64,000 nucleotides of DNA, taken from contig NZ_VWSF01000023.1 of NCBI RefSeq assembly GCF_008629685.1, forward strand, positions 1 through 64,000, in the 5' to 3' direction. Shown here piece after piece: positions 16,396 to 32,164 of the stretch; the stretch's first letter is position 1; each line of letters begins with the position of its first letter. The stretch is from Adhaeribacter rhizoryzae. Its GTDB lineage: Bacteria > Bacteroidota > Bacteroidia > Cytophagales > Hymenobacteraceae. The position numbers and the translations under genes are program-made. The notes beneath the pieces are model-generated. The model did no database searches. It worked only from the letters and a program-made list of their open reading frames with translations, and was not told where the DNA came from.

Positions 16396-16461
16396 CTGAC
16401 AACAATCAGCCCCAGAAATGACCTACGTCATCTTTCTCCCAGTGCTTTCTGGCGAATTTTG
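16396..16461 (+). promoter_or_regulatory. ccoNO promoter: tandem Crp/Fnr-type sites plus -7 element
   Basis: Distal dyad CTGAC-AACA-ATCAG at 16396-16409; proximal dyad ATGAC-CTAC-GTCAT at 16418-16431 (offset 22 bp); -7-like GAATTTTG at 16454-16461. The 5-4-5 layout is that of Crp/Fnr-family operators. If transcription starts a few bases after the octamer, the proximal site is centred near -41.5 and the distal near -63.5. The ccoG (23143) and USP (26024) promoters show the same geometry. Confidence 0.75.
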
Positions 16462-16487
16462 AACCGTAAAAATTCAAAAGAGCACTT

Positions 16488-18671
16488 ATGTTACTCGAAA
16501 CATTACCAAAAGAAAAGAAAGTAGTTCCGCCGGGCGCACCGGCCGTGGATTCCTTTTACTACGACAACAAAATAGTCCGCAACTTTGCCTTTGCCTCCGT
16601 GGGTTGGGGCTTGGTGGCCATGCTGGTGGGGGTTATTGTGGCGTTCCAGTTGGCCAACCCGGCCATGAACATGGGCACCGAATACACCACCTTTGGGCGG
16701 ATAAGGCCATTGCACACCAACGCGGCCATTTTTGCGTTTGTGGGCAACGGTATTTTTATGGGCGTTTATTACGCGCTGCAACGTTTGTGTAAAACCCGGA
16801 TGTATTCCGATTTACTGAGCAAAATTCACTTCTGGGGCTGGCAGCTTATTATTGTGGCCGCGGCTATTACGCTGCCCCTGGGTTTTACCACTTCCAAAGA
16901 ATACGCTGAACTGGAATGGCCCATTGATATTGCCATTACGGTAATCTGGGTAATATTTGGCTGGAACATGTTCGGGACCATTTTACAACGCCGCGAACGC
17001 CATTTGTACGTAGCTATTTGGTTCTTTATTTCTACGTTCTTAACGGTAGCGGTGCTGCACCTGGTTAATTCATTCGAGATTCCGGTGTCTTTCCTGAAAA
17101 GTTATTCGGGTTATGCGGGGGTGCAGGATGCATTGGTGCAGTGGTGGTACGGCCACAACGCGGTGGCTTTCTTTTTAACCACGCCTTACCTGGGCCTGAT
17201 GTATTACTTTTTGCCCAAAGCGGCTAACCGCCCGGTGTATTCGTACCGCTTATCTATTATTCACTTCTGGGCGCTGATATTTATTTACATCTGGGCTGGT
17301 CCGCACCACTTGTTATATACTGCCTTACCCGACTGGGCACAATCTTTAGGCGTAGTTTTCTCGATTATGTTGCTGGCACCCAGCTGGGGTGGTATGATTA
17401 ACGGTTTATTAACCCTGCGCGGTGCCTGGGACAAAGTAGCCGAAAGCCCGGTGCTGAAATTTATGGTGGTAGCGATTACAACTTACGGGATGGCCGTATT
17501 CGAAGGTCCCATGCTGTCTTTGAAAAATGTAAACGCCATTGCGCACTTCACCGACTGGATTGTAGCGCACGTACACGTAGGTACATTGGGCTGGAACGGT
17601 TTCTTAACTTTTGGCGTGCTGTACTGGTTAATCCCGCGCATTTTCCAAACCAAATTGTACTCCAATAAACTCGCTAATACCCACTTCTGGTTAGGTACGC
17701 TGGGTATCCTGTTCTACGCTATTCCTATGTACTGGGCCGGCTTTACCCAAGGTTTAATGTGGAAACAGTTTACCGCCGAAGGTACGCTGCAATACCCGAA
17801 CTTCCTCGAAACGGTGTTCCAGATTATCCCGATGTATTATTTGCGCGGTATTGGTGGTGCCATGTATTTGCTGGGTGCCTTTGTAATGGCCTACAACCTG
17901 TTCAAAACTGTTCGTCAGGGCGAATTATTAGCCGACGAAGTAGCCCATGCTGCCCCAATTCAGAAATTGCCGAAAGGCGCCAAATTAGATGGCCACTGGC
18001 ACCGTTGGATTGAGCGTCGTCCGATTCAGTTAGCCGTTTGGGCAACCGTAGCCATCCTGATTGGTGGTTTAATCGAGATGATTCCGACTTTCCTGATTGA
18101 GTCTAATGTGCCTACCATCAGCAGCGTGAAACCTTATACTTCTTTGGAATTACAAGGCCGCGACGTGTATATCAAAGAAGGCTGTAACAACTGTCACTCG
18201 CAAATGGTGCGTCCGTTCCGCTCCGAAACCGAACGTTACGGCGAATATTCTAAAGCCGGTGAATTCGTGTACGACCGGCCGTTCCTGTGGGGTTCTAAAC
18301 GTACTGGTCCGGATGTGCACCGGGTAGGAGGTAAGTATCCGCACTCCTGGCACTACAACCACATGATAGACCCTACCACCATGTCGCCGGGTTCTATTAT
18401 GCCGCCGTACCCCTGGTTAGCCGAGAAAGACCTGGATATTTCGGACACCTCGGATAAAATTCATGCGATGCGCCGGATGGGTGTACCATACTCGGAACAG
18501 TACGAGAAAAATGCCAACGACCACCTGATGACGCAAGCGAAAGAAATTGCCGCCGAACTCGGGAAAGAAGGCATCGAAGTTAAACCCGAAAAAGAAATAG
18601 TGGCTTTAATTGCTTACTTGCAACGCCTGGGTACCGACATTAAAGCCAAAGAAGAAGTAGCAGAAAAATAG
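16488..18671 (+). CDS. ccoNO: cbb3-type cytochrome c oxidase subunits I and II fused (CcoNO)
   Basis: 727 residues. Residues about 25-480 are CcoN: twelve or so membrane segments and the heme-copper His ligands (for example WWYGHNAV and GPHHLLYTALPDW, later DWIVAHVHVGTLGW). From about 510 it continues into CcoO: one membrane anchor (AVWATVAILIGGLIEMIPTF), a c-type heme site EGCNNCHSQMVRPF with Cys566, Cys569 and His570, and the axial Met region SPGSIMPPYPWL. The fused form is common in Bacteroidota. This is the catalytic core of the high-affinity terminal oxidase that reduces O2 and pumps protons in the inner membrane. It heads the operon with ccoQ and ccoP and has an Fnr-like tandem operator upstream. 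Confidence 0.97.
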   Translation: MLLETLPKEKKVVPPGAPAVDSFYYDNKIVRNFAFASVGWGLVAMLVGVIVAFQLANPAMNMGTEYTTFGRIRPLHTNAAIFAFVGNGIFMGVYYALQRLCKTRMYSDLLSKIHFWGWQLIIVAAAITLPLGFTTSKEYAELEWPIDIAITVIWVIFGWNMFGTILQRRERHLYVAIWFFISTFLTVAVLHLVNSFEIPVSFLKSYSGYAGVQDALVQWWYGHNAVAFFLTTPYLGLMYYFLPKAANRPVYSYRLSIIHFWALIFIYIWAGPHHLLYTALPDWAQSLGVVFSIMLLAPSWGGMINGLLTLRGAWDKVAESPVLKFMVVAITTYGMAVFEGPMLSLKNVNAIAHFTDWIVAHVHVGTLGWNGFLTFGVLYWLIPRIFQTKLYSNKLANTHFWLGTLGILFYAIPMYWAGFTQGLMWKQFTAEGTLQYPNFLETVFQIIPMYYLRGIGGAMYLLGAFVMAYNLFKTVRQGELLADEVAHAAPIQKLPKGAKLDGHWHRWIERRPIQLAVWATVAILIGGLIEMIPTFLIESNVPTISSVKPYTSLELQGRDVYIKEGCNNCHSQMVRPFRSETERYGEYSKAGEFVYDRPFLWGSKRTGPDVHRVGGKYPHSWHYNHMIDPTTMSPGSIMPPYPWLAEKDLDISDTSDKIHAMRRMGVPYSEQYEKNANDHLMTQAKEIAAELGKEGIEVKPEKEIVALIAYLQRLGTDIKAKEEVAEK

Positions 18672-18703
18672 AAAAAGCAAAAGGTAAGTTTTAGTTTTTT
18701 GAA

Positions 18704-18742
18704 TGAGGCTCCTCCTGGGTAAAACCAGGAGGAAACCTTGAA
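18704..18742. other. intra-operon hairpin between ccoNO and ccoQ
   Basis: GGCTCCTCCTGG and CCAGGAGGAAACC form a GC-rich stem with a short TAAAA-type loop in the 123-bp gap between ccoNO and ccoQ. There is no T-run directly after it, so it looks like an mRNA stability or processing element rather than a terminator. Confidence 0.5.
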
Positions 18743-18794
18743 AATTAAATTTCCTGAAGCGTTACCCCGAACCCCTTTAAACTAATAAAAAACC

Positions 18795-18992
18795 ATGTAT
18801 AAAAATATTCTGCAATCCATAGCCGGCATCGAAATATACCCCATTATTTCCTTTGCCATCTTCTTCGGGTTCTTCCTTTGCCTGATTCTGTACGTGATTC
18901 TGGTAGATAAAAATCTGGTGAAAAACATGAGCGAACTGCCGCTCCAGAACGATGAAGATTCACTGCCAAAAGAAGGAGTTTACCGGTCATGA
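18795..18992 (+). CDS. ccoQ: cbb3 oxidase subunit CcoQ-like
   Basis: 65 residues with one membrane segment (about 15-38, IISFAIFFGFFLCLILYVIL) and a short charged tail. Its size, topology and position between CcoNO and CcoP identify it as the CcoQ/subunit IV position, which helps stabilise the complex in other bacteria. Its stop overlaps the ccoP start by 4 bp. Confidence 0.85.
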   Translation: MYKNILQSIAGIEIYPIISFAIFFGFFLCLILYVILVDKNLVKNMSELPLQNDEDSLPKEGVYRS

Positions 18993-20188
18993 AAACACTT
19001 ACCAATCAATTTAAAAACTTTGTGCTGGCGGCAGCATTTGCCGTATCCTTGCCGGGCCTTGCCCAGGACCATGTAGCTGCCGGAAAAAAAGTATTTACCG
19101 ATAATTGCGCTGCCTGCCATAGCCTGGATGCCCAGGTAGTTGGGCCGGCTTTGAAAGGCGTAACCGAGCGCCGCGACGAAGCCTGGGTGAAGAACTTTAT
19201 TAAAAACTCAACTAAATTAATCCAGAGCGGCGATAAAGAGGCGGTGGCTTTGTTCGAGAAATTCAACAAAACCCAAATGCCGGCTTTCGAAGGCAGCCTT
19301 TCCGAAGAGCAAGTAACTTCGGTAGTAGCCTACCTGGCTAACCCCGGCGAAGCTGCTCCGGCTGAGGCCGCTGCCCCGGCAACAGATAACAAAGCCACGG
19401 CGGCGGCTTCGGTTCCGGCACCTGAATTTAATTTGCAGGCGATAGATCCTATTTTGCTGGTGCTGGTGTCTTTTGCGCTTATTTTATTATTGGTAATACT
19501 GGGGTTTGGCCTGATTATTTTAAAGCAGGTTTCCCCGCTGCTGGCTAAAGTTTACGAGAAGCCAGCGTACCAAAATTCGTTCATGGCCCGTTTGGTAGCC
19601 ATGTTCCAGGGCGAGGGCCAGCTTTTTGTTAAGAAAGACAAGAACATTATTATGGAAGGCCACGATTACGACGGCATCCATGAGTTCGACAACGACTTGC
19701 CGCCTTGGTGGAGATATTTATTTTACGCAACGGTGGTTTTTAGTTTGGTGTACGTAGTTAACTACCACGTAATGGGCGGTAAATTACAGGATGCTGAATA
19801 CGAAGCCGAAATGCAAACTGCTGCCCTGTTGCACCCGCCCACCGAAGAAGGTAGCATCAACGAAAAAACCGATTATAAAGTGTTAACCGATGCTGGCGCT
19901 TTGGAAAAAGGGAAAACTGCTTACCTGCAAAACTGCGCGGCCTGCCACGGCCAGGAAGCCGAAGGTAAAATTGGCCCTAACTTAACCGACGAGTACTGGC
20001 TGCACGGTGGTGAGGTAAACGAAATATTTAAAACCATCAAATTTGGGATAACCGAAAAAGGCATGGTAGCCTGGAATGGCAAACTCTCTAAAGACCAGAT
20101 ACTGGAAGTGAGCAGTTATATATTAAGCTTACAAGGTTCTAACCCGGCCGGTGCTAAAGAGCCGCAAGGCGAGAAGGTAACCAAGTAG
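18989..20188 (+). CDS. ccoP: cbb3 oxidase diheme subunit CcoP with extra N-terminal cytochrome c domain
   Basis: 399 residues. A signal peptide is followed by a class I cytochrome c domain (Cys40-Ala-Ala-Cys43-His44, axial Met near TQMPAF). Then come an Ala/Pro-rich linker, a membrane segment (about 153-175), the CcoP N-terminal signature DNDLPPWWRYLFYATVVFS with a second membrane segment, and a C-terminal cytochrome c domain with Cys316, Cys319 and His320. Ordinary CcoP has two hemes in one C-terminal region; here one heme domain has been moved to, or added at, the N terminus. The protein carries electrons from the donor cytochrome to CcoO. Confidence 0.92.
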   Translation: MKTLTNQFKNFVLAAAFAVSLPGLAQDHVAAGKKVFTDNCAACHSLDAQVVGPALKGVTERRDEAWVKNFIKNSTKLIQSGDKEAVALFEKFNKTQMPAFEGSLSEEQVTSVVAYLANPGEAAPAEAAAPATDNKATAAASVPAPEFNLQAIDPILLVLVSFALILLLVILGFGLIILKQVSPLLAKVYEKPAYQNSFMARLVAMFQGEGQLFVKKDKNIIMEGHDYDGIHEFDNDLPPWWRYLFYATVVFSLVYVVNYHVMGGKLQDAEYEAEMQTAALLHPPTEEGSINEKTDYKVLTDAGALEKGKTAYLQNCAACHGQEAEGKIGPNLTDEYWLHGGEVNEIFKTIKFGITEKGMVAWNGKLSKDQILEVSSYILSLQGSNPAGAKEPQGEKVTK

Positions 20189-20220
20189 TTTTGAGTTTTT
20201 AACCCTAAGTAGCTTGTTTT

Positions 20221-20255
20221 AGCCCTTCCTTAATAATTTTAAGGAAGGGCTTTTT
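20221..20255 (+). terminator. terminator of the ccoNOQP operon
   Basis: AGCCCTTCCTTAA (20221-20233) and TTAAGGAAGGGCT (20239-20251) form a perfect 13-bp stem followed by a T-run. The rest of the gap to 20525 shows only a lone GTCATTCTGG at 20356, possibly half of a lost palindrome. Confidence 0.9.
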
Positions 20256-20525
20256 GCTTGTAAAAAATACTCTCAGTTTAAGAAAATATTTCCTTTTTAC
20301 CTTAGTAACTGATGTTACGCAAAAATTTAAATAATATAGTTCAAGTAACCCACTTTTGTCATTCTGGATACCTAAATTTAATTTTGCCCTACCTATTGCT
20401 TAACATTAGTTATTAATTCTAGGGTAGAAGATAAATAAATTCTGCCTATATTAGCTTGTACTAAGTTGTTGTATTTCAGGGTGTATGAAGTACCTAACAA
20501 AGCCGAACCTGTTTTAAAAATAAAG

Positions 20526-21692
20526 ATGAATCAATTACGCTTTATTTTAATCCTTTTGGTATACCCGCTTTTAAATGTATACGGCCAAACTCAGCCCGGT
20601 AAAAAGCCTATTTTGGCTAATAGTAATATTTGGACCCAAGCCAGGTTAGCTGCGTTTGAGAAAGAAATAGAAAACTTACGCCAGCAACATCATATTCCAG
20701 GTTTATCGGTTGGTATTGTAAAAGATAAACAATTGGCCTGGCAGAAAGGCTTTGGCTATGCAGATGTGGCGCAAAAAATTATACCCGACGAACATACCGT
20801 ATATCAAATTGCTTCGGTAACCAAAACTTTTGGTTCTATTTTGCTGATGCAGCAAGTAGAAAAGGGTAAAGTAAGTTTGGATGATCCAATTGCCAAATAC
20901 AATATTAATTTAGGCGCCCGCTGGGGCAGCGATGAACGGATTAAAGTAAAGCATTTGCTCACGCATACGGCCATGGGTAATTCCCTGAATGCGTTTAAAC
21001 CAGGCTACACCTTCCGCTACAACGGAGACTGGTATAACCGTTTAGGCTTGGTAATAGAAAAGGCGGCGGGCCAACCGTTTGGCGAAATATTGCTGCAAAA
21101 TATTATCCGGCCGCTTGGCTTACAAAATACCGTTCCGAGTACAGACGATAGCATTAATTTTAAATTAACCGGTTACAACCCGGAAGTTTTTAAAACCAAA
21201 GTAGCCAAACCTTATGATTGGCAGAAAAAGCAACTGGTTCCCGTGCAATATACTTATGGTTTTGGTCCGGCGGCCGGCCTGATGAGCAGTGTAGCAGACC
21301 TGGCCGTTTACGCCAATGCCTTAGATGAACAACAATTTTTGCTGCCCCAAACCTGGGAAAAGGTATTTACACCTTTTGTAACCCCTAAAGGAAAAGAAAT
21401 TCAATACGGACTGGGCTGGTACGTGAAAAATTATAAAGGCGTAAAGGTGGCGTGGCATACAGGTTGGTGGACCGGCTACTCGGCTTTATTTATCCGGGTT
21501 CCGGAGCAAGCGCTTACCTTTATTGTGCTGGCCAATTCTCAGGATTTAAGCCGGCCCTTTTACCACGTGGTGCAACCAATACCGGGCATCGGCTTCTTTA
21601 ATCCCTTGCGTTCCAACCTTAACAAAAACTTGCTGGCCTCCGATTTTGCCAAAGCCTTCTTTCAGTATTTTATAGAAGAAAAAGAGAATTAA
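20526..21692 (+). CDS. secreted serine hydrolase, class C beta-lactamase family
   Basis: 388 residues from ATG 20526, chosen because it begins a clean signal peptide (MNQLRFILILLVYPLLNVYG). Active-site motifs are SVTK with Ser97 and Lys100, the second motif region FRYNGDWYNRLG (Tyr conserved, the usual third residue Asn is Gly), and the KTG-equivalent WHTGWWTGYSA. This group contains esterases, D-aminopeptidases and penicillin-binding-like proteins more often than true beta-lactamases. The substrate is unknown. It does not belong to the oxidase operon, because a terminator lies between. Confidence 0.87.
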   Translation: MNQLRFILILLVYPLLNVYGQTQPGKKPILANSNIWTQARLAAFEKEIENLRQQHHIPGLSVGIVKDKQLAWQKGFGYADVAQKIIPDEHTVYQIASVTKTFGSILLMQQVEKGKVSLDDPIAKYNINLGARWGSDERIKVKHLLTHTAMGNSLNAFKPGYTFRYNGDWYNRLGLVIEKAAGQPFGEILLQNIIRPLGLQNTVPSTDDSINFKLTGYNPEVFKTKVAKPYDWQKKQLVPVQYTYGFGPAAGLMSSVADLAVYANALDEQQFLLPQTWEKVFTPFVTPKGKEIQYGLGWYVKNYKGVKVAWHTGWWTGYSALFIRVPEQALTFIVLANSQDLSRPFYHVVQPIPGIGFFNPLRSNLNKNLLASDFAKAFFQYFIEEKEN

Positions 21693-22010
21693 ACAAGTCA
21701 TTCGCGAAGGTAAGAGAAGGCTCTCCTTTGACGGCGTCGGGCGGAATTAATTTAATTTTTTATATGGAATAGCCTTTATACTATTGAGTATTATAACCTG
21801 GTAGGCCATTATTTCTGAAAACCTTCTCTATATTATATTTCAAGGATATTACTTTTGAAAATAATTAATCCTTAGGTGAGAACCTGGGCTATCTTCTTTT
21901 CGGTAAGCTTTATTAAAGAATATTAAACTTACCGGAAAAAAGGCCTAAGATGGGAACCCATCAAAATAATTATAGCCAAAGTTGCTCCCAAGAGATTACC
22001 TTATCAGGCG
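21693..22010. other. convergent intergenic region with hairpin
   Basis: 318 bp between convergent genes. CTTTTCGGTAAG (21896-21907) pairs with CTTACCGGAAAAAAG (from 21928) around a 20-base AT-rich loop and is the likely bidirectional terminator. Nothing else was seen. Confidence 0.5.
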
Positions 22011-23036
22011 CTATTTCACAAATGCTGCTTTAGCCACATAATCGTAAGACTTCCTGACTGATTCTAGTTGTGAAGGAGATGCACTGGTGGCCGGGTTAGG
22101 GTATTCCAACTCTACATAATATTTTTCTAAGCCTCCGGTAGCATAACCAACCGTAAAAATGTTTTCGAAATTCATAAATCCAGTCGAGCCCAGAACGTCT
22201 CTGTCTTTGATGTGCAGGAAGGGAAAGCGCCCCGGGTACCGCCGGAAATAAACAACGGGATCACACTGGCCCATTACTGCCCAATACACATCCATTTCAA
22301 AGAATACCAGGCTGGGCTCAGTATTGGTCAAGAGAAAATCATAGAAAATTTCGCTGGGGTAACTGTTCTGGGTAATTTCCATTTCCGGCGACCAATCTTC
22401 ACCGCGCTTTGCCCCAATCCGTTTAAATTCCTGACTATGGTTATGGTAGCCCCACCGCATTTTGGCCTCTTTGGCTAGTTGCCCGGTTTGATTAAAAATA
22501 TCGCAAACCAGTTTAGCATCATCCAGCGTGTTTATGAGGGGCATAGCAGGCTGCACCATTACCGGCACACCTAGCTCCTGATGATCGGCTATAGCCCTTT
22601 TCCAGAATTCAAGTATAGCCTTGGTATTTTCCCGGGTATAGGTTTCAATCTGGATGCTGCGCTCTCCTTTACCGGTTCCTCCGCCATCACCAAATTTGTA
22701 AAGGCTTTTCAGCGGCGGCTCCAGATGAGAACTGGTTGGTTCCAGACCAATGTCGTCTAACAACTTTCGGTAATCTTTTAACGAATAGCCAAGAACAGAA
22801 CCTTTTTTGTCCTGCTGTTCATAGCCATACAGTTCTACATGCGAGAAGCCAATTTTCTTCAGGGCTGTTAACGAACCTACCATGTCTTGCTTCAACTGGA
22901 GGCGAATAGAATAAGTCTGAATCCCGATTTTCTTTTGCCTAGGAGCACTGGCAGCACCTAATACATTGTTCTCTGAAAGCATTCCTGCAGCCGCAAGTGC
23001 TGTTACGTTTTTAAGGAAATTTCTTCTTTTGTACAT
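22011..23036 (-). CDS. Tat-exported sugar phosphate isomerase/epimerase-like TIM barrel
   Basis: 341 residues from the Met that starts MYKRRNFLKNVTALAAAGM, a twin-arginine signal. A longer open frame exists upstream, but it runs through the ccoG operators and is not accepted. The fold is the AP-endonuclease-2 type TIM barrel (IGIQTYSIRLQLKQDM, FSHVELYGYE, GYHNHSQEF, FFEMDVYW, HIKDRD), with the metal-binding Glu/Asp/His residues of xylose-isomerase-like enzymes. Many Bacteroidota have Tat-exported members with unknown sugar substrates. It is divergent from ccoG, with 232 bp between the starts. Confidence 0.85.
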   Translation of the reverse strand: MYKRRNFLKNVTALAAAGMLSENNVLGAASAPRQKKIGIQTYSIRLQLKQDMVGSLTALKKIGFSHVELYGYEQQDKKGSVLGYSLKDYRKLLDDIGLEPTSSHLEPPLKSLYKFGDGGGTGKGERSIQIETYTRENTKAILEFWKRAIADHQELGVPVMVQPAMPLINTLDDAKLVCDIFNQTGQLAKEAKMRWGYHNHSQEFKRIGAKRGEDWSPEMEITQNSYPSEIFYDFLLTNTEPSLVFFEMDVYWAVMGQCDPVVYFRRYPGRFPFLHIKDRDVLGSTGFMNFENIFTVGYATGGLEKYYVELEYPNPATSASPSQLESVRKSYDYVAKAAFVK

Positions 23037-23142
23037 AGGCGTGTGGGGGTAAGTGGCGGTAAGGCTAAGGTAATAATAAATAGACAATGTTCTAAGGTGA
23101 TTATTATGGATTATCAGATTACTATAAATCAATATTCCTCCC

Positions 23143-23208
23143 TGATTAAGATCAGCCGGCATTATGATCGCCGTCATGTTTATTCGGCAGCGCAATTCAG
23201 ATTTTTGT
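23143..23208 (+). promoter_or_regulatory. ccoG promoter: tandem Crp/Fnr-type sites plus -7 element
   Basis: Distal dyad CTGAT-TAAG-ATCAG at 23143-23156; proximal dyad ATGAT-CGCC-GTCAT at 23165-23178 (offset 22 bp); -7-like GATTTTTG at 23201-23208, beginning 23 bp after the proximal site ends. The distal site shares the flank CCTCCCTGA...ATCAGCC with the ccoNO promoter. The start codon lies 60 bp after the octamer. Confidence 0.75.
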
Positions 23209-23268
23209 AAAGTTAAAAACCACAATCGCGGCAGGTAATTACCCAACGCAAACAAAATCTAAACTAAA

Positions 23269-24669
23269 ATGAGCCACGTTGCAACCGATACTGACCACTT
23301 CCGCGACTCGGTATCTACAGTAGATAAAGAAGGGAAACGGGTGTGGCTTTACCCCAAAAAACCATCCGGAAAATATTACAATGCCCGTAAACTGGTAAGC
23401 TATGGTTTACTCACCATTCTGTTTGCGGTACCGTTCCTGAAAATTAATGGCTTGCCGGTGCTCATGCTCAACTTCCCGGCCCGTAAGTTTATTATTTTCG
23501 GACAAATATTCTGGCCCCAGGATTTCTTTATCCTGCTGCTGGCCTTTTTAACCCTGGTGGTATTTATTATTTTGTTTACGGTAATTTACGGCCGGGTTTT
23601 CTGCGGCTGGGTTTGCCCCCAGACAATTTTCATGGAAATGGTTTTCCGCCGCATCGAATATTTTATTGAAGGCGACTACAACAAACAAAAAGCCCTGAAC
23701 AAAGCCCCCTGGACCCGCGAGAAAATTCTGAAAAAAGGCACCAAACACACCATCTTCCTGGCTATTTCTTTCCTGATTGCCAACCTGTTTTTGGCTTATA
23801 TTATTGGCATAGATGAGTTAAAAGTTATTGTGCTGGATTCGCCGCTGAACCACCTGGTGGGTTTGGGTACGCTGCTGGTTTTTGCCGGTATCTTTTACTG
23901 GGTGTATGCCAGCTTCAGGGAGCAGGTTTGTACCATTGTTTGCCCGTACGGCCGCTTACAAGGCGTAATGATGGATAAAAAAACCACCGTTATTGCCTAC
24001 GATTTTGTGCGTGGCGAGCCCCGCGAGAAACAGCGTAAAGGCCAGGAGCGTACCGCCGGCGACTGTATAGATTGCCACCAGTGCGTGCAGGTTTGCCCCA
24101 CCGGTATCGATATCCGGAACGGCACCCAACTGGAATGTATTAATTGTACCGCTTGCATCGATGCCTGCAACAACATTATGGACCTGATAAACAAGCCGCA
24201 AGGCTTAATCCGCTACGACTCCATGGAAGGCATTGAAAAAGGAGAGAAGTGGAAATTAAATGCCCGGATTAAAGGCTACAGTGCAGTGTTGTTAATTCTG
24301 GTGGGAATATTAATAACGCTGCTGGTAACCCGCAGCAACGTAGATGCCACCATTTTGCGCACGCCGGGCATGTTGTTCCAGAAAAACGATAAAGGTGATA
24401 TTGTAAACCTGTATAATATTTCGGTTATCAATAAAACCAACGAAGAAATGCCCATTACCTTAAAATTATTGGAACCGGCGCAAGGCACGATTCAGGTAGT
24501 AAAAAACAACTTAATACTACCCAAACAAGGCATTACCGAAGGTGTTTTCTTAGCCGAAATTCCGGCCCAATATTTAACCGGCATTAATTCCGAAATAGAA
24601 GTAGGGGTTTACAGCCGCGGAAAACTGATTGCCGTGGAAAAAACCAAGTTTATGGGTCCGGCCAAATAA
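23269..24669 (+). CDS. ccoG: cytochrome c oxidase accessory protein CcoG (FixG/RdxA)
   Basis: 466 residues. The N-terminal membrane domain (segments at about 43-62, 85-107, 160-182, 197-212) includes YGRVFCGWVCPQTIF and IVCPYGRLQGVM. Two 4Fe-4S ferredoxin motifs follow: Cys266, Cys269, Cys272, Cys276 and Cys290, Cys293, Cys296, Cys300. A further membrane segment and an immunoglobulin-like C-terminal domain complete the usual FixG plan. CcoG takes part in copper handling for cbb3 oxidase assembly; it is described as reducing Cu(II). It is followed by ccoH and a UreH-like exporter with gaps of 26 and 1 bp, forming one operon. Confidence 0.95.
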   Translation: MSHVATDTDHFRDSVSTVDKEGKRVWLYPKKPSGKYYNARKLVSYGLLTILFAVPFLKINGLPVLMLNFPARKFIIFGQIFWPQDFFILLLAFLTLVVFIILFTVIYGRVFCGWVCPQTIFMEMVFRRIEYFIEGDYNKQKALNKAPWTREKILKKGTKHTIFLAISFLIANLFLAYIIGIDELKVIVLDSPLNHLVGLGTLLVFAGIFYWVYASFREQVCTIVCPYGRLQGVMMDKKTTVIAYDFVRGEPREKQRKGQERTAGDCIDCHQCVQVCPTGIDIRNGTQLECINCTACIDACNNIMDLINKPQGLIRYDSMEGIEKGEKWKLNARIKGYSAVLLILVGILITLLVTRSNVDATILRTPGMLFQKNDKGDIVNLYNISVINKTNEEMPITLKLLEPAQGTIQVVKNNLILPKQGITEGVFLAEIPAQYLTGINSEIEVGVYSRGKLIAVEKTKFMGPAK

Positions 24670-24695
24670 TTTAATAAATAAGAAATTTAATCCGA

Positions 24696-25172
24696 ATGAA
24701 TACTCCAACAGTTAATTCCAGAAAGAGTGGGTGGTTTTTACCCTATGTTATTACGGGCGCTTTTATCTGTTTTATGAGCTACATTATTTTCTTTGTTACG
24801 CAGGCCATGCGCTCCGAAGTAAATCTGGTGAGCAAAGATTATTACCAGCAGGAACTGGATTACCAGAAACATATTGAAGTAATGAACCGCACGGCTGCCC
24901 AAAACCAAGCGGTAACTGTGGCGGCACCAGCCGGTACCAATCAGGTAATTTTAAATATGGCGGTAGAGGCTAACGAGAAAATTACCGGCACCATTAATTT
25001 TTTTCGTCCTTCCGATGGTTCCCAGGATTTTCAGGTGCCGTTAAAACTAAACGAATCGCAAAACCAGGTTCTGAATACCGAAAAACTATCGAAAGGCTTG
25101 TGGCGCGTTAAAGTTAATTACAACCGGGGCAACCAGCATTATTACAACGAAACGCAAATAACGCTGCAATAA
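24696..25172 (+). CDS. ccoH: FixH/CcoH family assembly protein
   Basis: 158 residues with one N-terminal membrane segment (about 13-34) followed by the typical EVNLVSKDYYQQELDYQKHI stretch and a periplasmic sheet domain. This is the Bacteroidota form of FixH/CcoH, an inner-membrane protein needed for stable cbb3 assembly. Its position directly after ccoG supports the call. Stop codon and next start are one base apart. Confidence 0.88.
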   Translation: MNTPTVNSRKSGWFLPYVITGAFICFMSYIIFFVTQAMRSEVNLVSKDYYQQELDYQKHIEVMNRTAAQNQAVTVAAPAGTNQVILNMAVEANEKITGTINFFRPSDGSQDFQVPLKLNESQNQVLNTEKLSKGLWRVKVNYNRGNQHYYNETQITLQ

Positions 25173-25173
25173 A

Positions 25174-25887
25174 ATGGTTTGGGCAGGTTTTTTAATGGGC
25201 TTACTGGGTAGTTTCCATTGCCTGGGTATGTGCGGACCAATTGCCGTGGCTTTACCCGTTGGCAAAGGCTCGGGCTGGCAGTTTGTTGCGGGCCGCTTGT
25301 TGTACAACGGCGGCCGCATTATTACCTACGCGGGTTTGGGTTTAGTTGCCGGAGCATTTGGGCAATCGTTGCAATTAGTAGGCATTCAGCAATTAGTTTC
25401 TATTGTGGCTGGCGTGTTAATATTAATATTGGCCGTTATGCCCGCCCTTATCTCCCGGCCTTTGGGAAATATACCTTTTATTCAAAAAACCTTGTTCTGG
25501 GTCCGGAAGACCTTTGCTAAATATTACCAGAAACAAAATTTATTATCGTTGCTGGTGGTGGGTTTGCTGAACGGTTTGCTGCCCTGCGGCTTTGTATATA
25601 TTGCCTTGGCCGGTGCCATCGCCATGAAAACTTTGCCTTTAGCAATGACCTACATGGCTTTATTTGGCCTGGGCACATTGCCTATGATGTTGCTGGTTTC
25701 TTTATCCGGCAAATTAATTAAACCCCAAACCCGATTTTTCTTTAAAAAAGCAGTGCCCTATATGGCCTGCATCATCGCCTGTTTATTTATTCTGCGCGGC
25801 CTGAACTTAGGTATTCCGTACGTAAGCCCTAAAGCGCAGGCCACCACGTCGCACCACGTAACCATGGCGTGTTGTCATAAGAAGTGA
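25174..25887 (+). CDS. UreH-like/TauE-family membrane protein with His/Cys tail (metal export or oxidase assembly)
   Basis: 237 residues with six or so membrane segments. The first begins FLMGLLGSFHCLGMCGPIAV, whose H-C-x3-C is characteristic of the UreH-domain group of the LysE/DsbD-like superfamily, found beside ccoG/ccoH in many genomes. The repeat half starts near YQKQNLLSLLVVGLLNGLLP-C-G-F. The last residues form a metal-binding-looking tail (SHHVTMACCHKK). The location suggests a role in copper delivery to the cbb3 oxidase; that is inference from context. Usual ccoI (copper ATPase) and ccoS genes are absent here. Confidence 0.8.
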   Translation: MVWAGFLMGLLGSFHCLGMCGPIAVALPVGKGSGWQFVAGRLLYNGGRIITYAGLGLVAGAFGQSLQLVGIQQLVSIVAGVLILILAVMPALISRPLGNIPFIQKTLFWVRKTFAKYYQKQNLLSLLVVGLLNGLLPCGFVYIALAGAIAMKTLPLAMTYMALFGLGTLPMMLLVSLSGKLIKPQTRFFFKKAVPYMACIIACLFILRGLNLGIPYVSPKAQATTSHHVTMACCHKK

Positions 25888-26018
25888 TTAGTTGTTAGTT
25901 GTTAGTGGGTAGCAGTGAATTGGAAGAAAAGAATAGCTATGAATATTTTTTATCCGGATTTTTTACAAACCATACAGAACAACTAACAACTAATTACTAA
26001 CAACTAACAACTAACCCC
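25886..26018. repeat. TTAGTTGTTAG-type inverted repeat
   Basis: ATTAGTTGTTAGTTGT (25887-25902) pairs with ACAACTAACAACTAAT (25979-25994); a second complementary block ACTAACAACTAACAACTAAC follows at 25997-26016 and could pair instead. It lies directly after the UreH-like gene and may act as its terminator or be a repeat. Confidence 0.6.
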
Positions 26019-26023
26019 TAACC

Positions 26024-26089
26024 ATGATAAAAATCAATTTTTTGGTTGATGTTGGTCGTGGGAAGGCAGGTTTAACGCCCTTACATTTA
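26024..26089 (+). promoter_or_regulatory. USP promoter: tandem Crp/Fnr-type sites plus -7 element
   Basis: Distal dyad ATGAT-AAAA-ATCAA at 26024-26037; proximal TTGAT-GTTG-GTCGT at 26046-26059 (weaker right half; offset 22 bp); TACATTTA at 26082-26089 matches TAnnTTTG at all but the last base and begins 23 bp after the proximal site ends. Same geometry as the ccoNO and ccoG promoters. Confidence 0.65.
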
Positions 26090-26132: not shown

Positions 26133-27017
26133 ATGAAAAATATATTAGTCATAACCGATTTATCGCAGGAAGCCCTACCGGTACTGCAATTTGCGAATAA
26201 GCTGGCGGCCAAAGCCGATGCTGAAATTGTACTGTTGCACTGTTTGGAATCTGAGGCGTTAACCGCTACTAACGAAAACCGGGCTTTGTCGCGGTTACGG
26301 AATTTTGCCGGACGTTTGCATCAGCAATACCCCAAAGTAAACGCTACGGTGGTACACAACGAATGTGTGGTAAGATCGGGTTCTTTGGTAAGCTCGGTGC
26401 AGGATTTGGTGCAGGATTACCGCATTAATTTAATCTTAATGGCGGCCCCTTATGCCGCTGATGAAACGGAGAACACCCAATTCTTTCAGGCTTTTTTAGA
26501 ACGGGTAAATTGCCCTATTTTATTGGTGCCGGCGCAAGGAGATATAAAAACCTTTAACCGTATTAGCTACGCTGCCGACTTCACCAGGTTGGATATGAGC
26601 ATGTTAAAACGAATAATTTCTTTTGCCCGGTTATATGAGGCAAATCTGGATTTGGTTCATGTTTATCAAAAGCAGCAACGGCCTTATTTGGCGCAGTACA
26701 AGAAAGCCTTAAGCCAGTTGTGCGTAGAAGTAACTTACGATAAAATCAATTTTTTCCTGCTCGAAGAAGATGATAAATTGGAAGGTATCAACGATTTTGC
26801 CGAACAGCGGGAAGCCGATTTACTTGTAATTGCCACCCCCGACGAGAACCTGGTTAAACGTTTATATAGCCAAAAATACCTGAAAACCGACGCCTATCAC
26901 CTGCATATACCCACTATTATTTACCCCGAAGGAAACGGCATAATTTGCTCTGCCCATTGTCCGGTTTGTACCCTCGATAAACAAAGAAAGCATAACCTGG
27001 AATTGGTTGCTCTATAA
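26133..27017 (+). CDS. tandem-domain universal stress protein with Cys-rich tail
   Basis: 294 residues, two USP domains. Domain 1 starts KNILVITDLSQEALPVLQFA. The ATP loop G-x2-G-x9-G is missing in both halves (LILMAAPYAADETEN; LLVIATPDENLVKRLYSQ), so nucleotide binding is doubtful. The C terminus has CSAHCPVCTLD, a C-x3-C-x2-C cluster that could bind a metal or respond to redox and that I do not know from ordinary USPs. Its promoter carries the same tandem Fnr-like sites as the cbb3 genes, which ties it to low-oxygen conditions. A terminator follows. Confidence 0.85.
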   Translation: MKNILVITDLSQEALPVLQFANKLAAKADAEIVLLHCLESEALTATNENRALSRLRNFAGRLHQQYPKVNATVVHNECVVRSGSLVSSVQDLVQDYRINLILMAAPYAADETENTQFFQAFLERVNCPILLVPAQGDIKTFNRISYAADFTRLDMSMLKRIISFARLYEANLDLVHVYQKQQRPYLAQYKKALSQLCVEVTYDKINFFLLEEDDKLEGINDFAEQREADLLVIATPDENLVKRLYSQKYLKTDAYHLHIPTIIYPEGNGIICSAHCPVCTLDKQRKHNLELVAL

Positions 27018-30990: not shown

Positions 30991-31857
30991 TTACCAATAG
31001 GTATTGTGTTTCAGTTCTGGTTGGCCGTAATAGGGGTGGGCGGGCAACGACAGAAGCGGAAACTGGGCCTCCAGCGCCAATTGCCGGGTTATACTCTTAT
31101 GAAAAAAATCTTCCAGAAAGTTGCGCTCGTGCATGGCCACTGCCAATAATTGAATATTATTTTGCACTACAAATTCCTGCAAACCTTTTACCACATTGTT
31201 TTCTTTTATTTGATTAATGTGCAGGTTATACTCCGGAAATTCCTTTTGCATGTAATACAAAGCCTGGGCATCGGTAATGGTTTTTAACTGCCGCTCGCTT
31301 TTAATATTTACCACATATACTTCGGCCTTTAACGATTCCGAAATATTGAATAGCTGGTGCAATAATTGCCTTTCATCAGATTGAAAATCAGAAGCGTATG
31401 CAATGCGTTGTATAGGCGTGTAAGTAGTGGCTGGCGGAATAATGAGCACGGGGCAAATAGCCGTTTTAATAAATGAAACGGTGTTGGTACCAACAAATTT
31501 GGTCATTAAGTTAGACGCACCTTTGGTACCCATTACCACCAAATCAACCTGGTTATTTTTTATTGCCCGGTTCAGAACCAAACTCAGGTTGCCCACTAAG
31601 CACAGCGTTTGAATAGGCTCATTTAAATTAAACTGTTCTTGCAATAATTGCGCTTGTTGCTGCAGTTGCTGCTCACTTTTTCTGATAATTGCCGGGTCCG
31701 TATCCAGCACCATCGTACTTTCGGCAATGGCTACCTGGTTGGTTTCGGTGTGCAGCAGTATTAATCCGGCGCTGGTTGCTCTAGCTAACTGCGCCGCAAA
31801 ATTAGCGGCAGCAATGGCATTTTCGGAAAAGTCGGTAGGAACAAGAATTTTTTTCAT
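30991..31857 (-). CDS. tandem-domain universal stress protein
   Basis: 288 residues. Domain 1 starts KKILVPTDFSENAIAAANFA and has a complete ATP loop (VMGTKGASNLMTKFVGTNTV). Domain 2 is degenerate at the loop (AVAMHERNFLEDFFHKSITR). It resembles the USP at 8883-9779 more than the one at 26133, and shares with it the VGTNT-x-S-x-I-K signature. No Fnr-type site was found upstream. Transcribed alone. Confidence 0.9.
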   Translation of the reverse strand: MKKILVPTDFSENAIAAANFAAQLARATSAGLILLHTETNQVAIAESTMVLDTDPAIIRKSEQQLQQQAQLLQEQFNLNEPIQTLCLVGNLSLVLNRAIKNNQVDLVVMGTKGASNLMTKFVGTNTVSFIKTAICPVLIIPPATTYTPIQRIAYASDFQSDERQLLHQLFNISESLKAEVYVVNIKSERQLKTITDAQALYYMQKEFPEYNLHINQIKENNVVKGLQEFVVQNNIQLLAVAMHERNFLEDFFHKSITRQLALEAQFPLLSLPAHPYYGQPELKHNTYW

Positions 31858-32164
31858 TATTTATATTTTTGTGCAGAACCCTTGGCTTGCATAATTCAAA
31901 AACTTAGGCCTAATAATTTAATAAGTTAATACGCATTTTCAGGCAGTAATGCTTCCGTCGTAAATTATTTGTGCAGTTGGCCACCGTCAGAGATTAAGGT
32001 AATTAGAATCAGCATACTTCCATTACAATTAAGCAGCTAAAAAACCGAAATAAATTTAGTTAAAGTAGTTGTTACACTGGTGCCAAGATTCAACAAAGAA
32101 TAATATTTTACTGACAAATATTTTCTCTTACTTTTAAGGCGCTAAATTCTTGCCCTAAATAATT
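31858..32164. other. gene-free divergent region
   Basis: 307 bp between the USP and GH5-like starts, AT-rich. I see no convincing dyad, -7 element or small gene. Confidence 0.5.

Follow-up and report, generated by a model that had tools for sequence, protein, structure and literature searches.

What do the genes for a cbb3-type cytochrome oxidase, an oxidase assembly protein and a universal stress protein (USP) of the soil bacterium Adhaeribacter rhizoryzae share upstream of their starts, and which regulator would read it? The question is raised by a stretch of 64,000 nucleotides from this genome (contig NZ_VWSF01000023.1, positions 1 to 64,000; the whole stretch is called the window below), in which the promoters of ccoNO, ccoG and a USP gene each carry two Crp/Fnr-type dyads in tandem, followed at a fixed distance by an octamer resembling the −7 element of Bacteroidota promoters. 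We find that this arrangement recurs in the genome and is conserved in relatives, and that the three sites in the window are most likely promoters of a genome-wide low-oxygen regulon. Judged from sequence, the likeliest reader of the tandem sites is a fusion of a receiver domain with a Crp-type protein, which lacks the iron-sulphur (Fe-S) cysteines of Fnr and is encoded beside a FixL-like haem-PAS kinase. The promoter elements and the genes that they precede are the following (basis of each call in brackets).

16396..16409, + strand: distal dyad of ccoNO, CTGACAACAATCAG (sequence, genome pattern search, family conservation)
16418..16431, + strand: proximal dyad of ccoNO, ATGACCTACGTCAT (sequence, genome pattern search, family conservation)
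16454..16461, + strand: −7-like octamer of ccoNO, GAATTTTG, 23 bp past the proximal dyad (sequence, octamer-distance count)
16488..18671, + strand: ccoNO, fused cbb3 oxidase subunits I/II, 727 residues (Pfam COX1 and FixO; NCBIfam bifunctional subunit I/II over cut-off)
23142..23155, + strand: distal dyad of ccoG, CTGATTAAGATCAG (sequence, genome pattern search)
23164..23177, + strand: proximal dyad of ccoG, ATGATCGCCGTCAT (sequence, genome pattern search)
23200..23207, + strand: −7-like octamer of ccoG, GATTTTTG (sequence, octamer-distance count)
23269..24669, + strand: ccoG, FixG-type assembly protein, 466 residues (Pfam Fer4_18 and FixG_C; NCBIfam ccoG over cut-off)
26024..26037, + strand: distal dyad of the USP gene, ATGATAAAAATCAA (sequence, genome pattern search)
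26046..26059, + strand: proximal dyad of the USP gene, TTGATGTTGGTCGT, with one core mismatch (sequence, genome pattern search)
26082..26089, + strand: −7-like octamer of the USP gene, TACATTTA, final base A where the consensus has G (sequence, octamer-distance count)
26133..27017, + strand: universal stress protein, 294 residues (Pfam Usp)

A first-pass annotation of the window had described these six dyads and three octamers, and direct reading finds all of them in the sequence, with a dyad offset of 22 bp and an octamer distance of 23 bp in each of the three promoters. Its coordinates for the ccoG dyads were one base too high; they start at 23142 and 23164. Distal and proximal dyads share the consensus TGAYnnnnRTCA. 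As read in the sequence, the USP promoter is the weakest of the three, with a proximal half-site TCG and the final A of its octamer. The ccoG dyads also precede the probable start of a divergent gene, for which a leader-like ATG was read by eye at 23036; in the list of open reading frames, the frame of this gene extends to 23255 on TTG.

The whole genome (6,518,791 bp, in which the window belongs to contig C16) was searched with the strict tandem pattern TGAYNNNNRTCA-N10-TGAYNNNNRTCR, its last base relaxed to R, and with the reversed pattern as control. Four places were found, three of them the promoters of the window, vs none for the control. When up to two mismatches were allowed (last base A), 26 tandem places were found vs three in the control, so that chance would account for about three of the 26; on both counts the genome is not strewn with random hits of this geometry. 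In 18 of the 26 places, one side or both have the octamer nAnnTTTR at a distance of exactly 23. Counted by orientation, 19 of 52 have the octamer at 23, and every other distance from 8 to 44 has at most two. The tandem design is therefore real, and it is not confined to three promoters, as had been supposed: some 18 places in the genome have it.

Conservation was assessed in the upstream DNA of all 91 ccoNO matches in a sample of 120 genomes from the family (90 relatives and the window). Both dyads, with no more than two core mismatches between them, are present in 90 of the 91 together with the octamer at 23; the exception, from genome G062, is a partial gene match. Loss of the dyads from in front of a retained gene is thus not what these promoters show. 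The offset between dyads is 22 in 79 promoters and 23 in 11 (eight genomes of genus g4 as well as G073, G077 and G093), so that the supposedly fixed 22-bp offset holds in most genomes, whereas the 23-bp distance to the octamer is constant. A free search over offsets of 14–30 and distances of 15–31 gave 22/23 in 78 cases, 23/23 in 11 and 26/23 in one; among 20 x 91 shuffled upstream stretches, neither the 22/23 nor the 23/23 geometry appeared. Compared between genomes, the 90 promoters are 98% alike in their dyad cores and 33% in the later spacer. The motif CTTTT past the proximal dyad is conserved as well, possibly as a −33 element (77 to 82 of 90 per base). The primary promoters of Bacteroidota have the −7 consensus TAnnTTTG; in the ccoNO octamer, the A and TTTG are invariant in all 90, and the first position has G in 69, C in 19 and T in 2. 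Position 10 of the dyad is A in 90 of 90 distal sites and G in 73 of 90 proximal ones.

Target genes were counted at the octamer-positive places, with a Pfam threshold of E 1e-5. In addition to ccoNO, ccoG and the USP gene of the window, the targets include four more USP genes (two on contig C22, one on C12 and one on C15), a hemA-type glutamyl-tRNA reductase, a globin, a 2-hydroxyacid dehydrogenase, a NorB-type nitric oxide reductase, cytochrome c and a radical-SAM protein that by reading resembles hemN. Two targets on C11 were judged by eye only, and for L022:687, L022:11700, L024:5879 and L032:7405 no Pfam match was found at this threshold. A gene for a copper-type P-ATPase lies on the opposite side of the globin site, but the octamer there, TAATATTG, breaks the rule. 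A Crp/Fnr-type tandem operator that keeps a constant spacing to a −7-like octamer, and that relatives share, is thus common to the cbb3 oxidase, its assembly gene and USPs, much as the first-pass annotation had proposed. In cco, hemN and nitrogen-oxide genes, the targets coincide in part with the FixK/FnrN regulons of Alphaproteobacteria (excerpt of PMC4999443).

The candidate readers were sought among proteins with a Crp-type helix-turn-helix. Of five HTH_Crp_2 matches that the genome gave, four are over the cut-off, and the two best (on contigs C31 and C12) are receiver-Crp (REC-Crp) fusions of ∼355 residues each. Pfam assigns to the C12 fusion a receiver (Response_reg) together with the cNMP_binding effector domain and HTH_Crp_2, features of the Crp/Fnr superfamily; the make-up of the C31 fusion comes, unlike that of C12, from matches to HTH_Crp_2, to a receiver, to FNR and CRP structure chains and to an Fnr-like NCBIfam model. 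Elsewhere, the match on C7 is below the cut-off, in a frame that looks GntR-like by eye, and that on C1 is partial. The C31 fusion gene overlaps by four bases the end of a gene for a 395-residue kinase, and the C12 fusion gene is the last of a four-gene run whose first member encodes a kinase with two PAS stretches. PAS regions of these kinases match solved haem domains of FixL (1dp6 for C31, E 1.8e-29; 8js5 for C12, E 1.6e-38), and both kinases have a proximal histidine followed 20 residues later by an arginine; in FixL, such a histidine and arginine bind haem and O2 (excerpt of PMC10765370). Cysteines occur in the C31 fusion at positions 55 and 302 only and in the C12 fusion at 52 and 234 only. 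The cysteine set of Fe-S Fnr is absent from both fusions and, by reading, from all five HTH_Crp_2 matches of the genome. The earlier proposal of one oxygen-responsive Crp/Fnr-family regulator is kept as regards a reader of Crp/Fnr type, but the best candidate is the receiver-Crp fusion beside its FixL-like kinase and not an Fnr that senses O2 directly. A. rhizoryzae has two paralogous copies of the fusion with different helices.

A search for relatives of the C31 fusion found 448, of which the best 80 named loci were analysed; these are mostly Sphingobacteriaceae by title (Adhaeribacter, Pedobacter, Desertivirga, Daejeonella, Parapedobacter, Mucilaginibacter, Sphingobacterium and others). A PAS kinase adjoins the fusion on the same strand in all 80 loci, and the haem His/Arg motif is present in 76. 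The phospho-acceptor aspartate and the conserved lysine of the receiver were found in all 82 aligned fusions (the 80 and the two of A. rhizoryzae), and the helix reads ExxSR in 77 and ExxIR in five, including the C12 protein. Among 430 strict dyad orientations in the 80 loci, the octamer nAnnTTTG is located at 45 (that is, 22 + 23) in 99 cases and at 23 in 17, no other distance having more than seven. The proximal site played no part in the selection of the 95 distinct cases whose octamer is at 45; in these it has T in 91, G or A in 45 and 50, A in 91, and T, C and A in 74, 74 and 64. The proximal dyad is real but weaker in these loci, which is why strict pairs at offset 22 number just four. 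Of 29 tandem loci of other relatives, 24 have the octamer at 23 on one side or both; by orientation, the count is 29 of 58 vs at most two at other distances. The same geometry around the fusion in mostly Sphingobacteriaceae loci rules out a design restricted to Hymenobacteraceae. Seven proteins downstream of the promoters in the 80 loci were run. Three are 2-hydroxyacid dehydrogenases, one of them only partly open, and the others are ccoNO, a FixL-like kinase, a stand-alone Crp/Fnr protein and a protein of 593 residues. In 42 of the 80 loci, such a promoter precedes the fusion gene on the same strand by no more than 5.5 kb (true gene starts used, distance 44 excluded), which suggests autoregulation.

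In the family sample the strict tandem pattern is present in 99 of the 120 genomes (reversed control, 3) and the fusion, called at E 1e-40, in 103. Tandem sites were found in 95 of the 103 genomes with the fusion and in four of the 17 without it (Fisher 4e-9); the shared ancestry of the genomes makes this and the following p value guides only, a caution that counts against leaning on them. All 91 genomes with ccoNO also have the fusion. The view that the sites are a mere by-product of the gain and loss of cbb3 genes is weakened by the 29 genomes without a ccoNO match (nine of them assigned by elimination), in which sites still follow the fusion: 9 of 12 with it vs 4 of 17 without (p = 0.008). 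Eight fusion genomes lack a strict 22-bp pair, and five of these (G004, G010, G015, G081 and G093) carry 23-bp pairs. A wider sample of 296 genomes from the phylum was searched with a pattern composed of the strict distal dyad, a proximal TCA and the octamer at 23, which matched in 45 genomes (reversed control, 1). A protein match at E 1e-35 was found in 62 genomes, 43 with full-length fusions and 19 with partial matches only; this search scored six candidates per genome, so that distant fusions were perhaps overlooked. Promoter matches occur in 30 of the 43 genomes with the fusion vs 15 of the 253 without. Across the sampled genomes, the predicted tandem sites track the fusion.

We consider it probable that the regulon is switched by the REC-Crp regulator, which amounts to FixJ and FixK joined in a single chain and would be phosphorylated by the adjoining FixL-like haem-PAS kinase as oxygen falls. 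The O2-free kinase would phosphorylate the receiver, REC-Crp dimers would occupy both dyads and the proximal dimer would contact RNA polymerase in the class II manner; we infer the binding, the phosphorylation, low oxygen as the signal and activation as the effect from domains and sites. The proximal dyad would be located near −41.5 and the distal one near −63.5: dyads 22 bp (about two turns) apart, with 23 bp to the −7-like element, fit class II activation at −41.5 plus a second dimer near −63.5. A strong distal and a weak proximal site at near-constant spacing, in turn, fit cooperative filling by neighbouring dimers, and the mostly Sphingobacteriaceae loci suggest that the strong distal site could recruit a dimer to the weaker proximal one. 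As a conjecture, phosphorylated receivers could pair between neighbouring dimers to give a tetramer.

Several findings speak against this reading. The octamer is missing from eight of the 26 tandem places of A. rhizoryzae, including C22:1297 and C13:32940. The C31 kinase, at 168 bits, is far under the curated NCBIfam FixL cut-off of 850, a difference from rhizobial FixL; the fusions score 90 and 71 bits against curated NCBIfam FixK (cut-off 300) and are also below the curated Fnr and Crp cut-offs. Thus, the names ‘FixL-like’ and ‘FixJ/FixK fusion’ mean likeness, not membership. No pair at gaps of 0 to 30 was found in three fusion-bearing genomes of the family (G014, G058 and G071), and 13 of the 43 fusion genomes in the phylum sample, 12 of them in family f7, have no promoter match. 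The genome of A. rhizoryzae encodes a further Crp/Fnr protein, on contig C34, with 215 residues and an FNR-like ExxSR helix. Finally, the 15 phylum genomes with promoter matches and no fusion indicate that the fusion is not the sole reader in nature.

A search of those 15 genomes with the Crp part of the fusion gave a match in 13. Twelve loci were fetched: ten encode proteins with an N-terminal CxxC and a cysteine 102 residues past the first cysteine, and two encode proteins without cysteines. In E. coli Fnr, too, a cysteine follows the first one of the set by 102 residues, so that ten of the 12 regulators have an Fnr-like set. The presence of Fnr-like proteins in genomes that have the promoter and no fusion shows that the architecture occurs with more than one type of regulator; which oxygen sensor the conserved operator serves seems to differ between lineages. 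It is possible, although we lean against it, that the operator predates its sensor and is read as a unit, here by a tetramer of REC-Crp dimers; across Bacteroidota, the architecture would then have been passed between Fe-S Fnr and the FixJ/FixK fusion driven by a haem kinase. In genome G390, the Fnr-like gene on its contig C23 is directly followed by one promoter match, and a second Crp-type gene, on its contig C12, is followed by another.

The two dyads might also be read by different Crp/Fnr proteins, for instance by both paralogues of the fusion or by one fusion together with another Crp/Fnr protein, joining signals such as oxygen and nitric oxide. The difference at position 10 between the 90 distal and proximal ccoNO dyads is consistent with this, as are the different helices of the two paralogues in A. 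rhizoryzae and the nitric oxide reductase among the targets; we nevertheless think it unlikely, because one consensus fits both dyads and most family genomes with the fusion have a single copy of it and keep both dyads. Still less probable is that another Crp/Fnr protein, above all that of C34, is the sole reader. Its ExxSR helix would suit the TGA half-site, but its relatives occur in only 62 of the 120 family genomes and four of six genera; genera g4 and g5 have tandem sites and no such relative, whereas G006, G053, G068 and G088 have the relative, no fusion and no strict tandem site. On this distribution we reject C34 as sole reader. That the spaced dyads are a by-product of chance or base composition is hardly conceivable: a single dyad has few specified bases and some three of the looser places would arise by chance, but the reversed and shuffled controls, empty for the strict pattern and for the ccoNO geometry kept in 90 of 91 promoters, together with the octamer peak at 23 in relatives, rule it out.

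The proposed REC-Crp circuit resembles the FixL-FixJ-FixK cascade of rhizobia and Caulobacter in its haem-PAS kinase, response regulator and Crp/Fnr-type activator without an Fe-S cluster, and in having cbb3 and haem genes as targets (excerpt of PMC4999443). It differs in that the Crp/Fnr protein carries the receiver, the FixJ step on a fixK gene being missing, and in its tandem operators with a −7-like element of Bacteroidota type. With Fnr it shares a dyad near TTGATnnnnATCAA, the ExxSR-type helix of most fusions and overlapping targets; unlike Fnr, the A. rhizoryzae fusions, with two cysteines each, have no Fnr set, and the kinase would sense oxygen. Class II promoters with an upstream dimer (class III) also bind two Crp-family dimers, at a spacing that varies and is often wider. 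Two such dimers are expected per promoter here too, but they would lie side by side, 22 (or 23) bp apart, with hardly any variation across genera. Strong cbb3 induction at low oxygen is described for a flavobacterium in PMC9723704, the main text of which contains no word beginning with Fnr or Crp. Among the papers listed in searches of an open-access library, we found none with a title or abstract on a receiver-Crp fusion with FixL or on this promoter in Bacteroidota. The analysis offers a predicted oxygen circuit, open to testing, for the control of cbb3 oxidase in Bacteroidota, a phylum for which these searches brought up no comparable account, and a rule for predicting its targets (dyad, 22 or 23, dyad, 23, octamer). 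The rhizobial oxygen circuit seems to be present here in shortened form, with two regulators that are separate in rhizobia joined in one protein.

The remaining genes around the ccoNO and ccoG promoters are these.

18989..20188, + strand: ccoP-type cytochrome c subunit, 399 residues (Pfam Cytochrom_C, Cytochrome_CBB3 and FixP_N)
24696..25172, + strand: ccoH/FixH, 158 residues (Pfam FixH)
25174..25887, + strand: DsbD_2-type membrane protein, 237 residues, next in the ccoG run (Pfam DsbD_2)

The window contains one more tandem place with two mismatches, at 31978-32011, before a second USP gene (30991-31857, minus strand); it has no octamer at 23 on either side and is perhaps due to chance. Elsewhere in the genome, contig C22 (64.8 kb) holds eight of the 26 tandem places, near USP, nitric oxide reductase and cytochrome c genes, and looks like a low-oxygen gene cluster. 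The places C22:1297 and C13:32940 are one common tandem stretch in opposite orientation with near-identical genes alongside, probably a duplicated segment.

The conserved 593-residue protein is encoded at L078:4988-6769 (Pedobacter boryungensis) and, in A. rhizoryzae, at L035:6008-7789 (contig C50); the one copy that was run has no Pfam or NCBIfam match. The A. rhizoryzae gene adjoins the tandem place C50:185919, which is without an octamer, and its product is 51% identical to that of L078 over 566 residues. The run of kinase and REC-Crp genes in L078 and L119 begins with a gene for a protein of this size, which lies after a tandem promoter. Among the phylum genomes, a second, longer conserved promoter-like stretch, TGATCTATATCAAGTTTTTACTTATTTCTAATCAATG, with a different proximal sequence fits the pattern in G140, G144, G323 and G339, where it is near-identical, and similar stretches occur in G168, G366 and G291.

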